A stretch of 41,358 bases of DNA from a virus. This document shows positions 23,447 to 38,757 of the stretch, one piece after another (within the stretch, counting starts at the first letter, position 1; each line of letters starts with the position of its first letter). Location of the stretch: IMG/VR virus record IMGVR_UViG_3300027503_000030, positions 1-41,358 of that record, one strand, 5' to 3'. The notes under the pieces are model-generated. The model did no database searches, was not told the DNA's origin, and worked only from the letters and a program-made list of their open reading frames with translations. The translations under genes and the position numbers were made by a program.

Positions 23447-23457
23447 ATATTTAGATA

Positions 23458-23465
23458 TATTTATA
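23458..23465 (+). promoter_or_regulatory. Candidate phage promoter box TATTTATA for hsp20
   Basis: Plus-strand TATTTATA 61 nt before the hsp20 ATG and just upstream of the 5' leader hairpin at 23471. Same orientation relative to its gene as the minus-strand boxes. Confidence 0.4.
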
Positions 23466-23470
23466 TAAAA

Positions 23471-23510
23471 TAAGATAGCTGAGCATTTTAATAACCGCCA
23501 TCTTAGGAGG
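23471..23510 (+). promoter_or_regulatory. hsp20 5' leader hairpin with adjacent Shine-Dalgarno-like AGGAGG
   Basis: TAAGATAGC (23471-23479) can pair with GCCATCTTA (23497-23505), 8 pairs with one mismatch. AGGAGG follows at 23505-23510, 16 nt before the ATG, unusually far for a Shine-Dalgarno site. The left arm is also part of a 12-nt sequence complementary to one behind the gene (23957-23968), so two pairings compete. A thermosensor role is inference. Confidence 0.45.
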
Positions 23511-23526
23511 CACAAATCAAAAAAAA

Positions 23527-23949
23527 ATGATAAGAAATGTAGTTGAAATTCCATTTAATTCAATGGATGTTTTTCTTAAAAATTATTTCGATACGAAGGT
23601 AGATTACACCTCAGTAAGCGATAGCAAAATTAACTACCCATTAGACATTATTCAATCAGATAGTGGGTTATTAATTCAAATAGCCTGTGTTGGGGCAGAT
23701 TTAGAAGATATATCAATAACGACTGCTCTTGATACGCTAAGAATTAAATATGATAAACCAAAATTAGATGATGGCTATAATTATGTTTTTAAATCAATAG
23801 CTCAAAGGTCATTTGACTTAGGATATAAAGTATCTGCTAAATATGATTTAAACAGAATTGAAGCTAAGTTGTCAAAAGGATTACTATCTATTAGTATACC
23901 TTATGAAGAAAACCAGCAACCTAAATCAATTAAAATAATTTCAGAATAA
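23527..23949 (+). CDS. hsp20: Small heat-shock protein, Hsp20/alpha-crystallin family
   Basis: 140 aa, normal for the family. The alpha-crystallin domain spans about residues 36-130: YPLDIIQSDSGLLIQIACVG, the strand LRIKYDKP, FKSIAQRSFDLGYKVSAKYD and the family-typical A.LSKGLLSISIPYEE. These chaperones hold unfolding proteins in solution. Hsp20 genes are a known accessory gene of T4-like cyanophages, where a role in virion assembly has been suggested. The gene is flanked by a 12-bp inverted repeat and has a structured leader. Base use is slightly GC-richer than its neighbours. Confidence 0.9.
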   Translation: MIRNVVEIPFNSMDVFLKNYFDTKVDYTSVSDSKINYPLDIIQSDSGLLIQIACVGADLEDISITTALDTLRIKYDKPKLDDGYNYVFKSIAQRSFDLGYKVSAKYDLNRIEAKLSKGLLSISIPYEENQQPKSIKIISE

Positions 23950-23956
23950 ACTAAAA

Positions 23957-23968
23957 GCTCAGCTATCT
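23957..23968 (+). repeat. Right arm of the 12-bp inverted repeat flanking hsp20
   Basis: GCTCAGCTATCT here is the exact reverse complement of AGATAGCTGAGC at 23473-23484, 472 bp upstream. Together they bracket the hsp20 coding region, so the transcript's 5' and 3' untranslated ends could pair. It lies only 4 bp before the next gene's ATG. Confidence 0.8.
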
Positions 23969-23971
23969 ATT

Positions 23972-26008
23972 ATGGAAACTAATACATTTATATTAAAAAA
24001 TATACAAAAAGCAATACTTTCAGAAAAATTAAGTAGAACATCTAAGATTGTAAAATTAGTAGAGATATCTAAAAATCCTAATAATAATATTAGTCCTAGA
24101 CAAAAGTTTTGGATTAATACTTTACTAAGACTTGTAGCAGATGAATCTTATTATAAAGATATAAAAATAACTAATGTAAAATGGGATGACGTTTTTAAAT
24201 TATACAATGACGAATACACCCCACAAGAAGCAGCAGCTATGTTAATACAGATGGATGAATCTATAATATCTAAATACAATAATAGATTAAACGAAGAAAA
24301 TTATAATGTATCTAAACCTATTGATATATCTTTTGACCTAAAAAAATTAAATACCAAAGAATATACTGATTTTGAATTTTCTGATTTAATAGATTCTATA
24401 AACAGTACTAGAGGTCTTAGTAAAAATATAGAAAAAAGGTCAGATGGTACATATGGATTCGTGGATTTAGTGCATAAGAATAGTAAGGATGAAAGTTTAA
24501 GAATACCTTTAATATTGCTAACACCTGATGCTTCTAAAAGATTGAGTAAAGATGGTAGTAATTTTGTAGCATCAAAATGGGATAAACTAATATCTTCTAA
24601 TGTATTTAATACTAAAAAAGATGCTGAAGATGCTCGTTCTAAAGCAATATTAAAAAGAAAAGATATTGCTCCATATATTCATAATGATACTATTAAAAGT
24701 ATTTCTGTATATGATGAGAATGGAAATTTAATGAACGGAGAAATACTTGATGCAAGTGGAACTCCATACAATTTAGATAGACTAAGGTCTTTAATTACTA
24801 AAAGACCTGATACATTACTAAGTTTTAATGAAAAATCAGAACATTCTACAGGGGGGACTGAAAAGGTGTTTAATTTAGGTCTACCTGCTTTAACAGGTTT
24901 GATTGTTGATGAAAATGATTCTAAAAAACCTTTCCATATAGTAAATACATGTCCAAGGGCAGGAAGTTGCAAAGCCCACTGTTTTGCAATGAAAGGAGGT
25001 TATGTTCAATTTGAATCACCTGCACTAAAGATGGTTCAAAAACTTAATTTTCTAATTAATGACCCTAAAGGATTCCAAGATAGATTAGTTGATGAAATAA
25101 AATCTGAGTATAACAAAATGAAATCTGATTTCAAGGATTCTACATGGCATCTTTTAGTTAGATTTCATGATTCTGGAGATTTTTTTAGTGATGACTATTC
25201 AAATTTAGCTTTAAATGTTTGTAGAATTTTTAGGGAAGGTGTTTATAAAGAAAATCCTGTATTATTTTATGCTTATACAAAGCAATTAGATGCTAAAAAT
25301 AAATTAGAAAGAGAACCCAATTTTGTTATAAATTTTTCACTAGGTTCTAAAGAAAGCTCTAAAATTGATACTAAAACTACTAAATTAGCAGCTGTAGTAG
25401 ATGACTTACAACTAAACAAAATTACTCCTGATTTAAAAAATAAAATTGTATCATTTTTAAAGAATAATTCAAAAACAAGTAAATATGATATTTATGATTA
25501 TTTAAAAAATGTTGCTAAGTTACCAAATAACGATAGAAATTTTAAGGTTACAACATTACTTAATATGATTAAAAACAAAGATGCTAAGAATTTAAGAAAA
25601 TTGTATGAAAGAGAAGTTATAAATGTAAAAGATACTGCTTGGCTAAAATATGTTAAAAGAGTTAAGACAGGAAATTTAATTAAGAAGTATGAAATGAAAG
25701 ATGGTAAAAAAGTTAAGGATGCCCAAGGCAACTATATATCAAATATGGTAGATGAGTATAAATGGGAATTTATTTCAGATAGAGCTTGGAAACTTTTTCA
25801 AGATAGATTATATAATACATACAAAGATAAGTTTGGAATAACTAGAGATAGCATTATAAAGTACTCTGATTGGGTTGAGTTACCTAGAAGCGAATGGTCA
25901 GGGAAAGAGAATATAGGTGCTTGGAATGTTGTTATCTTGCCAGGTATCGATGGTGACCTAGCTGCATCGAGAAGTGATGTACACATATCATTTTTATTAG
26001 TACATTAG
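23972..26008 (+). CDS. GP88-family phage protein
   Basis: 678 aa. The Cys-rich core at about residues 325-342 (NTCPRAGSCKAHCFAMKGG) and the later VRFHDSGDFFSDDYSNLAL and PVLFYAYTKQLD segments match the GP88-type phage family as I know it: Cys cluster, then R.H.SGDFF, then FYAYTK. The end has GDLAASRSDVHISFLL, another conserved piece of these proteins. The biochemical function is not established. The Cys cluster suggests metal or iron-sulfur binding (inference). The 200-aa N-terminal extension is lineage-specific. It is longer than typical members. Confidence 0.65.
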   Translation: METNTFILKNIQKAILSEKLSRTSKIVKLVEISKNPNNNISPRQKFWINTLLRLVADESYYKDIKITNVKWDDVFKLYNDEYTPQEAAAMLIQMDESIISKYNNRLNEENYNVSKPIDISFDLKKLNTKEYTDFEFSDLIDSINSTRGLSKNIEKRSDGTYGFVDLVHKNSKDESLRIPLILLTPDASKRLSKDGSNFVASKWDKLISSNVFNTKKDAEDARSKAILKRKDIAPYIHNDTIKSISVYDENGNLMNGEILDASGTPYNLDRLRSLITKRPDTLLSFNEKSEHSTGGTEKVFNLGLPALTGLIVDENDSKKPFHIVNTCPRAGSCKAHCFAMKGGYVQFESPALKMVQKLNFLINDPKGFQDRLVDEIKSEYNKMKSDFKDSTWHLLVRFHDSGDFFSDDYSNLALNVCRIFREGVYKENPVLFYAYTKQLDAKNKLEREPNFVINFSLGSKESSKIDTKTTKLAAVVDDLQLNKITPDLKNKIVSFLKNNSKTSKYDIYDYLKNVAKLPNNDRNFKVTTLLNMIKNKDAKNLRKLYEREVINVKDTAWLKYVKRVKTGNLIKKYEMKDGKKVKDAQGNYISNMVDEYKWEFISDRAWKLFQDRLYNTYKDKFGITRDSIIKYSDWVELPRSEWSGKENIGAWNVVILPGIDGDLAASRSDVHISFLLVH

Positions 26009-36238: not shown

Positions 36239-36314
36239 GTGCGGTTATGGAGGATAATCGCACGTTAAGTTAAACGGTGTATGTTGTAATGACATTAGCC
36301 GAAACCCTTGAAGG
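36239..36314 (+). ncRNA. Structured 76-nt leader of CRISPR array 1
   Basis: Identical to 38271-38346. Three consecutive stems can be drawn: GTGCGGTTAT with ATAATCGCAC around a GGAGG loop (10 pairs, one G-U); CGGTGTATGT with ACATTAGCCG (8 pairs with a 2-nt internal loop); and ACCCT with AGGGT across the junction with the first repeat. It could be a leader, a tracrRNA-like element or a processing signal. No convincing anti-repeat to the CRISPR repeat is present. Confidence 0.6.
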
Positions 36315-36715
36315 GTCAGAGTACGTCTTTGGATTGTGGAGGGTATCTCACTGTTTGAAATTACCTTCAAGGGCTTTAATTTCCATTTCCGTCAGAGTAC
36401 GTCTTTGGGTTGGGGAGGGTATCTCACATATCCATTGGTTGATTCAAATGGAAAACGTACAGTCAGAGTACGTCTTTGGGTTGGGGAGGGTATCTCACCT
36501 CCATACATTTAAAACCAAGGGGAACGTAAACAATTGTCAGAGTACGTCTTTGGGTTGGGGAGGGTATCTCACTAAAGCTGAAAATAAAGAAGCAGCAATA
36601 ATAACACGTCAGAGTACGTCTTTGGGTTGGGGAGGGTATCTCACAGAGATTAAGACTGAGTTGTGGTGATTTACTTATGTCATAGTACATCTTTGGGTTT
36701 GGGAATGTATCTCAC
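36315..36715 (+). CRISPR. CRISPR array 1: six 37-nt repeats, five spacers
   Basis: Repeats at 36315-36351, 36391-36427, 36462-36498, 36536-36572, 36608-36644 and 36679-36715, beginning GTCAGAGTACGTC and ending GGGTATCTCAC. Spacers are 39, 34, 37, 35 and 34 nt and all differ. The four inner repeats are identical; the first has two changes and the last five. Repeat ends are imperfect inverted repeats (GTCAGAGTAC against GTATCTCAC). The repeat is 54% GC in an AT-rich genome. Oriented with the nuclease gene immediately downstream. Confidence 0.92.
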
Positions 36716-36755
36716 TCCCAAAAAAAACAAAGTTATAACAAATAAAACAAAAGTT

Positions 36756-38264
36756 ATGGAAAATGTTTTAAAAGCATATAGGTTTGAATTACAACCTTCA
36801 AAAGAACAATGTATTGAATTCGATAAACAGATAGCATCTTGTAGACATACTTGGAATGCTATGTTAGCACTAGATACTAACAAACACAGAAATTACTATA
36901 TTAGTAATCCTGATAAACTACAGGATTATATAAATAACCTAACTAAGGTTGAAGAGTTGAAGAATAGCTACGCTAAGTATCTAGTAGACAATCCGAATCC
37001 CACTTTTGAACAAAAATTGGATTTTTTTATTCCTGTTGTTGAAACCAAATTAAATTGTGGTGAATTCATAACATATGTAACAGAATATTTACAAGAGCGT
37101 ATAAAATCTAATACTGAAAGTCTTTCTAAAATAGAATCTATTGATGATAATTCTAAAATTTTGGCGAAGAAGCTAACAACTAAAATAGAATCAGACAATA
37201 AAAACTTATTAGATATTACTACAGTTAATAAAAAATATTCAAAATTAACATTGGGAAAATTTTTAACAATACTCAGGTCATATGAAAATTATGAATGGAT
37301 GTCAACTTGTCCAAGACTTTCCCAAACTGCTGTTGTTATAAATTACTACGAATCTTGGAATAAGTATTTTAAATATTTAACCAAACTAAAAAAAGGTGAT
37401 ATAAACCATAGGGTTGGTAAACCTAAATTTAGAAAATATAAAGATGTTTCATCATTTATAACATCTTATGGTGACAATATTACATTAGAAAATTTAGATG
37501 ATAATAAATCATTACTACATATTACAGGTTGTGACCCTATACGATTAATTAGGCATAGAGAACCTAAAGGTATTCTAAGGTCAGGGACTATAGTCAGGGA
37601 GTATGCAGGTAAGTATTATGTAAGTTTACTATATAGTATTGATGATTACCAACCTATTTCTAAAAAAACTGAAAAAGAAATAGCTATAGATTTAGGTGTT
37701 AAAACTTTAGTTGTTCAAAACGATGGACATACCTATGAAAATAAATCTAAACAAGTATCAGCAGATAAGAAATTAGCTAAGATTCAAAGAGAACTAGCTT
37801 TGAAAACAAAAGGTAGTAAATCAAGAAGGAAAGTGATAGCTAAACTTCGTAAAGCTCATCGTAAAATAAAGAATATTAGAACTGACTACTTACACAAAGT
37901 TTCTAGGGAACTTGTTAATAATTATGATGTAATTTATACAGAAAACTTGAAGAATAAGGAAATGATAGAAAAAGGTACAAAGAGTCTATCTAAATCTCTA
38001 CAAGAAAGTTCATTTGGTAAATTTGTCACTATGTTAGAATATAAAAGTAGAGAAGATGATAAGAGATTGATTAAGGTTGATACTTATTTTCCCTCATCTC
38101 AACTATGTTCAAATTGTGGACATAAAAATACAGAATTAACTTTAAATGATAGAGAATGGGATTGTCCAGTATGCAATGAACATCACGATAGAGATTTGAA
38201 TGCTGCTAAAAATATATTCAAAGAAGGTGTAAGAATAAAGAACTCAAAAGAGAGTTCTAAATAA
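36756..38264 (+). CDS. TnpB-like / Cas12-family RNA-guided nuclease, compact type V effector
   Basis: 502 aa from the ATG at 36756; the frame is open further upstream but only through the last degenerate repeat. The N-terminus LKAYRFELQPSKEQ..EFDK and CRHTWNAMLAL is the TnpB/OrfB start. Residues about 45-190 are a helical insert absent from simple TnpB. GKPKFRKYKDVSSF marks the next conserved part. RuvC-I is EIAIDLGVKTL (D312), RuvC-II VIYTENL (E396), zinc ribbon C451/C454 and C470/C473, RuvC-III HDRDLNAAKN (D480). All catalytic residues are present. Flanking arrays argue for a CRISPR effector, not a transposon nuclease; subtype unassigned. Confidence 0.88.
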   Translation: MENVLKAYRFELQPSKEQCIEFDKQIASCRHTWNAMLALDTNKHRNYYISNPDKLQDYINNLTKVEELKNSYAKYLVDNPNPTFEQKLDFFIPVVETKLNCGEFITYVTEYLQERIKSNTESLSKIESIDDNSKILAKKLTTKIESDNKNLLDITTVNKKYSKLTLGKFLTILRSYENYEWMSTCPRLSQTAVVINYYESWNKYFKYLTKLKKGDINHRVGKPKFRKYKDVSSFITSYGDNITLENLDDNKSLLHITGCDPIRLIRHREPKGILRSGTIVREYAGKYYVSLLYSIDDYQPISKKTEKEIAIDLGVKTLVVQNDGHTYENKSKQVSADKKLAKIQRELALKTKGSKSRRKVIAKLRKAHRKIKNIRTDYLHKVSRELVNNYDVIYTENLKNKEMIEKGTKSLSKSLQESSFGKFVTMLEYKSREDDKRLIKVDTYFPSSQLCSNCGHKNTELTLNDREWDCPVCNEHHDRDLNAAKNIFKEGVRIKNSKESSK

Positions 38265-38270
38265 AAATCT

Positions 38271-38346
38271 GTGCGGTTATGGAGGATAATCGCACGTTAA
38301 GTTAAACGGTGTATGTTGTAATGACATTAGCCGAAACCCTTGAAGG
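38271..38346 (+). ncRNA. Second identical copy of the 76-nt structured leader
   Basis: Starts 6 bp after the nuclease stop codon and is identical over 76 nt to 36239-36314, including the three potential stems. No separate promoter is seen before it, so it is probably cotranscribed with the nuclease gene. Exact identity points to recent duplication or strong selection. Confidence 0.6.
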
Positions 38347-38757
38347 GTCAGAGTACGTCTTTGGGTTGGGGAGGGTATCTCACTGCACAAAAGTAATGAT
38401 TTTTCTACATCGACACCTCAAGTCAGAGTATGTCTTTGGGTTGGGGAGGGTATCTCACGAGGAGGCTAAAACACTACAGAATTATTATCTGAAGTGTCAG
38501 AGTACGTCTTTGGGTTGGGGAGGGTATCTCACTTTGATTAAAGCGGTCTATAGCAGGTCTGACTTCCAAATGGTCAGAGTACGTCTTTGGGTTGGGGAGG
38601 GTATCTCACGCCAACATCGGTAGTAAAAAAGTGACAAAGTCGGTAGTGTCAGAGTACGTCTTTGGGTTGGGGAGGGTATATCACTAATTATGGCTAATTT
38701 GCCATAATTAAAACTGAGGTATTAGAGTATATCTTTAGATTTTAGAGTATTATTTAA
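38347..38757 (+). CRISPR. CRISPR array 2: five 37-nt repeats plus one decayed terminal repeat
   Basis: Repeats at 38347-38383, 38422-38458, 38496-38532, 38573-38609 and 38648-38684, same sequence as array 1 with single changes in the second (position 10) and fifth (position 33). Spacers are 38, 37, 40 and 38 nt. At 38721-38757, after a 36-nt interval, 21 of 37 positions still match the repeat, nearly all differences being G or C to A or T. This marks a decayed sixth repeat. No spacer is shared with array 1. Confidence 0.92.
38685..38710 (+). terminator. 10-bp perfect hairpin in the last interval of array 2
   Basis: TAATTATGGC (38685-38694) pairs with GCCATAATTA (38701-38710) around a 6-nt loop. 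It starts exactly at the end of the fifth repeat. No T-run follows, so it may be an RNA stabiliser or the original last spacer rather than a classical terminator. Confidence 0.4.

Follow-up and report, generated by a model that had tools for sequence, protein, structure and literature searches.

The 5′ leader of a phage hsp20 gene and a segment directly behind its stop codon are complementary to each other, and, as judged from the comparison of many relatives, this complementarity is conserved beyond what chance would give. The window, i.e., the whole analysed stretch of 41,358 bases, is a viral record; besides genes related to tails it codes for an endolysin-type amidase and a transposase, and it carries hsp20 at positions 23527–23949 of the plus strand, coding for a small heat-shock protein of 140 amino acids (Pfam PF00011, HSP20, E 1.5e-10; PHROG 432). 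The 5′ arm AGATAGCTGAGC (23473–23484, plus strand) and the 3′ arm GCTCAGCTATCT (23957–23968, plus strand) are exact reverse complements, as had been claimed in the first-pass annotation for a 12-bp inverted repeat around hsp20, and the pairing extends to 15/16 bp. The 5′ arm ends 42 nt upstream of the hsp20 ATG, and the 3′ arm follows the stop codon at 7 nt, with 3 nt left to the ATG of the next gene, a member of the GP88 family (23972–26008, plus strand; PF17338, E 3.8e-22) that is a neighbour only. A further copy of either arm within 2 mismatches has not been found in the window. Considered alone in the window, the repeat stands out only slightly: the window contains 17 exact 12-mer inverted pairs with a spacing of 100–700 nt (10.5 expected), of which one has at least six G/C (0.07 expected), a value reached in 2 of 30 simulated windows. 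The commonness of 12-bp inverted pairs at such spacing would speak for a chance repeat; this explanation is refuted by the conservation and covariation in relatives and its probability has become practically negligible. The significance of the arm pair thus derives from the relatives and not from the window alone.

A protein search has yielded seven close loci, one of them (L007) truncated. Both arms are present in all six that extend over the two sides of the gene, in spite of divergence in the downstream gene and in the sequence preceding the leader. In L006, with 80% protein identity and a different upstream gene, a U-A pair has been replaced by C-G through changes on both arms. At 42% identity, L129 carries a wholly different 12-bp pair, ACGACAGGTCTC/GAGACCTGTCGT, in the same place, followed by groES, and the protein search starting from L129 has yielded 18 loci with more unrelated arm pairs, e.g., TACTTGGTAGGCT/AGCCTACCAAGTA, and with a G·U version in L202–L204. 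The 253,664-base contig L278, with a distinct Hsp20, shows a 14-bp pair whose sequence is different again; an AAGGAGG of its own lies nearer to the ATG. Scans with leader patterns have led to the same gene: the first has returned 37 stretches, 36 of them followed by an hsp20-like reading frame and the other one cut but beginning like hsp20, and at least 50 of the 76 stretches of the second belong to hsp20 (a quick protein check gave 47/76 and missed at least L282, L283 and L310), the non-hsp20 matches among those listed being without a paired stem. In some phages the same leader element precedes a longer Hsp20 of 189–209 amino acids with a Ser/Thr/Gly-rich N-terminal extension, a group noted among L210, L211, L212, L218, L228, L230, L233, L237, L240 and L244.

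The strength of the pairing has been estimated by duplex energies, pairing the 62 nt that precede the conserved leader motif AACC with the 50 nt that follow the stop codon. Over 72 distinct elements the mean is −30.1 kcal/mol; shuffling of the 3′ segments gives −12.1 and an exchange of partners −15.3, and 70 of the 72 beat all 100 shuffles. As the pattern scans could bias the choice of loci, the test has been repeated on loci selected by protein. All 200 shuffles were beaten in 7/7 loci comprising the window and its close relatives (L007 cut), in 16/18 loci of the L129 search (L194 reaching 1/200 and L207, cut upstream, 8/200), and in 77 of 80 further loci, the other three at 1/200 each. These 80 were kept out of at least 584 relatives, which implies that the family of hsp20 elements is larger than the set analysed. 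In a within-genome control with 100 open reading frames of 300–900 nt from the window and eight relatives, nine have beaten all 100 shuffles, and these are the nine hsp20 genes. The merged set comprises 173 elements, reduced to 124 distinct ones, with L207 dropped on account of its cut 5′ side and with L007, L146 and L239 ending before the 3′ arm. Among the 124 there are 77 distinct 5′-arm cores, and the longest uninterrupted helix measures 8–21 bp (median 12). Homologous comparisons have given 338 pair-keeping double changes, 314 one-sided changes and 378 broken cells, these counts referring to sequences and not to independent events. The conservation of the repeats around hsp20 has in this way been borne out: the refuting case named in the first-pass annotation, hsp20 retained in relatives that lack the arms, has turned out the other way, as nearly all protein-selected loci with both flanks keep a covarying pair. 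This supports its view of the arms as RNA-like elements that belong to hsp20.

Upstream of hsp20, several further parts of the leader have been recognized. Directly 5′ of the 5′ arm lies a promoter-like motif, TATATTTATA (23456–23465, plus strand), read in the sequence and with a putative function; a TATATTTAT-like motif is located 5′ of the arm in 107 of the 124 elements, mostly 8–18 nt away. This motif would place the 5′ arm at or near the mRNA 5′ end, and we infer from it that both arms probably reside on one transcript. The 5′ arm would be contained in the loop of a weak, local hairpin 1 (TAAAAT/ATTTTA, 23466–23490, plus strand), which has been read in the sequence and is moderately supported: over the elements, the flanks have a more stable predicted fold than their shuffled versions (mean z −1.06), 25 of 121 elements being in the lowest 5%, and in many elements the 5′ arm occupies the loop or one side of a local hairpin, cleanly so in L236, L129 and L278. 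The alignment of elements has further revealed a conserved, single-stranded AACC (23493–23496, plus strand) before hairpin 2 and a conserved ACAAA (23512–23516, plus strand) between hairpin 2 and the ATG. Hairpin 2 itself (23497–23511, plus strand), identified by covariation and model match, consists of a GCC/GGC stem, a bulged A at 23500, UC/GA pairs and the tetraloop UUAG (23503–23506). In its general form, a stem of 3–5 bp follows AACC and is separated by a bulged A from two further pairs, which are closed by a tetraloop; the other half of the stem and ACAAA come thereafter.

In 35 elements (34 distinct) the pairing of hairpin 2 is kept in 99.0% of cells, compared with 73.1% after shuffling, and 45 cells have changed on both sides (12.2 shuffled); the covariation score of 0.629 (0.181 shuffled) is reached by 0 of 500 shuffles, and slid versions of the hairpin pair in at most 57.5%. 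A covariance model of hairpin 2 has its sole match in the window at 23490–23516 (E 8.3e-8). It finds one strong match in each of 38 whole contigs, the next best anywhere having E 0.27, with the exception of one contig that has a match near each end. Since the leader patterns and the first hairpin-2 finder depended on the bulged A as well as on portions of the flanks, the alignment of pattern-selected loci cannot prove the invariance of these features, and the protein-selected loci constitute the fairer test. In the 80 such loci kept of at least 584 relatives, a strict finder has recognized hairpin 2 in 64 and the covariance model at E ≤0.01 in 67, against 0 of 15 cyanophage-type and other phage hsp20 loci. 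A generic finder, which also requires the A, has matched 72 of the 80 (55 of 1600 after shuffling of the leaders); chance picks are suspected in 2 of these 72, and the other 8 loci fit by eye with other tetraloops. The tetraloop is variable, with UUCG, UUUG, CUAG and CAAG also found in the protein-selected loci by finder and by eye. The comparison of relatives has thus demonstrated the two structures as well as the covariation in each, and has shown that they are linked to hsp20 exclusively. Rfam covariance models have given no match at the window element and none in 14 relatives. A likeness of hairpin 2 to the MS2 operator may be considered; as the tetraloop is not fixed and a literature search has given no support for this likeness, we do not press it. 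In L243 the 5′ arm holds ACCTTAGGG, i.e., nine bases of the bulged-A/loop region of hairpin 2 in the T4-like group, possibly by chance.

It has also been considered whether the arms act as DNA, be it as inverted operator or recombination sites or as scars of a mobile hsp20 cassette, the latter having been offered in the first-pass annotation as an alternative. A single gene flanked by inverted repeats would suit such a role, as would the neighbours of hsp20, which differ among phages: the downstream position is taken by groES or other genes, with a gap of 22–93 nt among the loci listed. The scar idea nevertheless fails because the arm sequences differ between clades and turn over whereas their complementarity persists. 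Terminal repeats in dozens of versions would lack a shared recognisable sequence (77 cores in 124 elements), and the window holds no third copy of an arm. The arms match in inverted and not in direct orientation (the inverted match is longer in 104/124, equal in 10 and shorter in 10), and nearly every relative carries them; a mobile cassette is further disfavoured by the single hairpin-2 element per contig, bar the one contig with two. The test between strands is a weak one, with 122 G·U versus 78 A·C among non-Watson-Crick pairs and 33 versus 22 distinct contexts among one-sided changes, and, leaving some room for DNA, these counts would favour RNA only mildly. In hairpin 2 of the same leader, sense-strand U·G wobble pairs (GCTT/GAGC, 7/73 elements) favour RNA as well. 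Altogether, a function as DNA appears extremely unlikely, and RNA is presumably the acting molecule.

Other searches have remained without further loci of this type. The pattern GATAGCYGAGCN{3,30}GCCATC was too loose (at least 120 stretches), the full motif being present only in known hsp20 loci among the matches listed, and the pattern CCGCCATCTNAGGAGG has returned 64 stretches, mostly from GC-rich contigs without hsp20. A leader-pattern scan of genome contigs has given 13 matches; among the matches listed, an hsp20 reading frame did not follow in any case. The hairpin-2 model has found no match in 5 + 149 genomes of one bacterial family reached via L318, a search that had no positive control. 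For the DNA polymerase of L129 no close isolate has been found (best 35.9%), and the examined stretch of that isolate was without annotated hsp20. Elsewhere in the window, the transposase gene (36705–38264; PHROG 506, E 3.6e-89) is located between two open reading frames (36289–36669 and 38321–38623) with an identical 25-nt upstream sequence and an identical start, as if an insertion had duplicated or split a repeated gene. Shine-Dalgarno-like motifs in the usual place have been found in only 1 of the 43 window reading frames of at least 100 amino acids, and in 6/62 and 0/36 in two sets of relatives; this near-absence suggests that the host belongs to a group not dependent on Shine-Dalgarno motifs.

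The AGGAGG of the leader (23505–23510) is part of hairpin 2 and lies 16 nt from the ATG; with this spacing and position it has been rejected as an ordinary Shine-Dalgarno sequence, and L278 and the group L202–L208 have a motif of their own nearer to the ATG. Beside it, a local hairpin between TAAGATAGC and GCCATCTTA (23471–23479/23497–23505) had been proposed in the first-pass annotation to compete for the 5′ arm. It can indeed be drawn, with one A·C mismatch, but is not conserved: TAAGAT/ATCTTA is broken in L002–L005 (ATCTAA, ATCTCA), and its 3′ half belongs to the covarying hairpin 2. The suggestion that this switch might be temperature-sensitive has fared no better. As a heat-shock gene, hsp20 would be a natural target of an RNA thermometer, and ROSE-type thermometers are located before other hsp20 genes; among phages, the hsp20 leader of the Methylophilales phage Melnitz-3 (L341, 294–356) scores 34.1 bits (E 0.001) against ROSE_3, below the gathering score. 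Predicted folds of full-length mRNAs, calculated for the first 45 elements with ribosomes ignored and with the pairs chosen by the duplex program, give the long-range core a mean pairing probability of ∼0.96 at 15, 25, and 37 °C, and a probability above 0.5 in 45/45 mRNAs, so that, according to these models, there would be no melting switch in that range. Taking into account the lack of a ROSE or other thermometer match in Rfam for the element, of a start-proximal Shine-Dalgarno sequence that could be melted, and of conservation of the TAAGAT/ATCTTA hairpin, we regard control of hsp20 by a thermometer as very unlikely.

Other phage hsp20 genes carry a different leader, which resembles ROSE. 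In the ROSE motif the pairing includes a bulged G. Stretches like CUCGCUU…AAGGAG are common to the hsp20 leaders of cyanophages, pelagiphages and Sinorhizobium phages (L331, L332, L334–L338, L341–L344), in which CUC(G)CUU can pair with AAGGAG with a bulged G as in ROSE, and in several of them a GGATGCC..GGGGTCC hairpin precedes. End-pairing has been tried and rejected as a common feature of cyanophage-type hsp20: 7 of 8 leaders are not above shuffles in both sequence windows compared, and P-HM1 (L333) is above in one. Small heat-shock proteins of cyanophages have been described (PMC3827213), and a search of that text for the terms thermometer, UTR, mRNA, promoter and upstream has found none of them.

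As the architecture of the element matches the mRNA end-pairing of hok and icaR, end-pairing control of hsp20 is proposed. According to this proposal, the extreme 5′ leader would be held in the weak hairpin 1 while complementing the segment just past the hsp20 stop; when transcription of the gene is complete, the 3′ arm could open hairpin 1 by strand invasion, and the mRNA would thereby become a closed loop. Such end-pairing, possible only after transcription of the full gene, may by analogy limit or delay hsp20 translation on the full-length mRNA, protect the message and shield its 5′ end from decay. A ribosome terminating on hsp20 would cover the 3′ arm, so that translation would keep the ends open and a two-state mRNA would result. 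Hairpin 2 may be bound by a regulator protein, or it may tune translation from its position near the start codon. With the direction and the trigger being those that we infer, we incline, with some reserve, to post-transcriptional control of hsp20 in the manner of hok and icaR.

The main rival is that end-pairing constitutes a device for stability or processing and not a translation switch. A 5′ end enclosed in a helix would block 5′-dependent decay; alternatively, a double-strand-specific nuclease would cut the helix and free hsp20 from a longer transcript. The closeness of downstream genes (22–93 nt among the loci listed) makes processing plausible, and the helix is predicted to be stable. 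Uninterrupted helices of 8–21 bp (median 12) are, however, short for RNase III, and hairpin 2 is not explained by stability or processing alone. The icaR end-pairing is an RNase III substrate (PMC3868564), which would support the rival. On balance we consider the rival a serious possibility, though the less probable one. Returning to translational control, a wider form of it can be imagined, in which these phages would share a widespread new class of end-closed chaperone mRNA whose bulged-A hairpin binds its own Hsp20 or another phage protein, and in which synthesis would track translation activity and the load of unfolded proteins, not temperature. Self-regulation in the manner of IbpA, with a small heat-shock protein binding its own leader, would be one such idea; this wider form is doubtful and is put forward tentatively.

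Literature searches combining hsp20 and phages with leaders, repeats or RNA structure have given nothing on the element among the papers listed. The paired ends and the second hairpin point to a control element of the hsp20 mRNA, which has not been found in the RNA libraries and papers searched. To our knowledge, end-pairing of bacterial and phage mRNAs is known from few nameable cases, mostly toxin genes and icaR. Here, the pairing is kept in more than 100 distinct phage loci with its sequence repeatedly rewritten, evidence of a kind rarely available for single cases, and these loci provide a natural series in which the mechanism of end-pairing and the need of a phage chaperone for it could be studied; the covariance model of hairpin 2 offers a search model for the further leader hairpin.

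Compared with known systems, ROSE-type thermometers of bacterial and phage small heat-shock genes share with the element a structured hsp20 leader, but their UYGCU/AGGAG pairing is absent from it and is seen in the cyanophage-type hsp20 leaders. The AapA/IsoA mRNAs of Helicobacter pylori resemble it in having local leader hairpins for which a role during transcription has been proposed, as in the case of a Helicobacter toxin mRNA (PMC6733600); they differ in being toxin mRNAs with an antisense RNA and in that their hairpins cover the Shine-Dalgarno sequence. In icaR of Staphylococcus aureus, a 3′-UTR segment likewise pairs with its own 5′ leader, by which initiation is blocked and an RNase III site is made, and a step-wise refolding model has been compared to hok (PMC3868564). 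The 3′ motif of icaR covers the Shine-Dalgarno sequence and its 3′-UTR is long, whereas in the hsp20 element the 5′ arm lies at a considerable distance before the ATG and the stop is directly followed by the 3′ arm; masking of a Shine-Dalgarno sequence by the 3′ arm as in icaR has not been found, the 5′ arm lying 42 nt before the ATG. The closest parallels are seen in the hok mRNA of plasmid R1, a type I toxin-antitoxin system, which pairs its 5′ and 3′ segments across a short gene, has a local 5′ structure that competes with the 3′ segment, of which hairpin 1 would be a candidate counterpart, and for which the timing of translation on the full-length mRNA is the proposed function; its 3′ end must be processed before ribosome or antisense RNA gain access (PMC4147584). 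In contrast to hok, which encodes a small toxic membrane peptide, the gene enclosed here is that of a chaperone, HSP20, and the phage element possesses an additional conserved bulged-A hairpin and is spread over very many phages.
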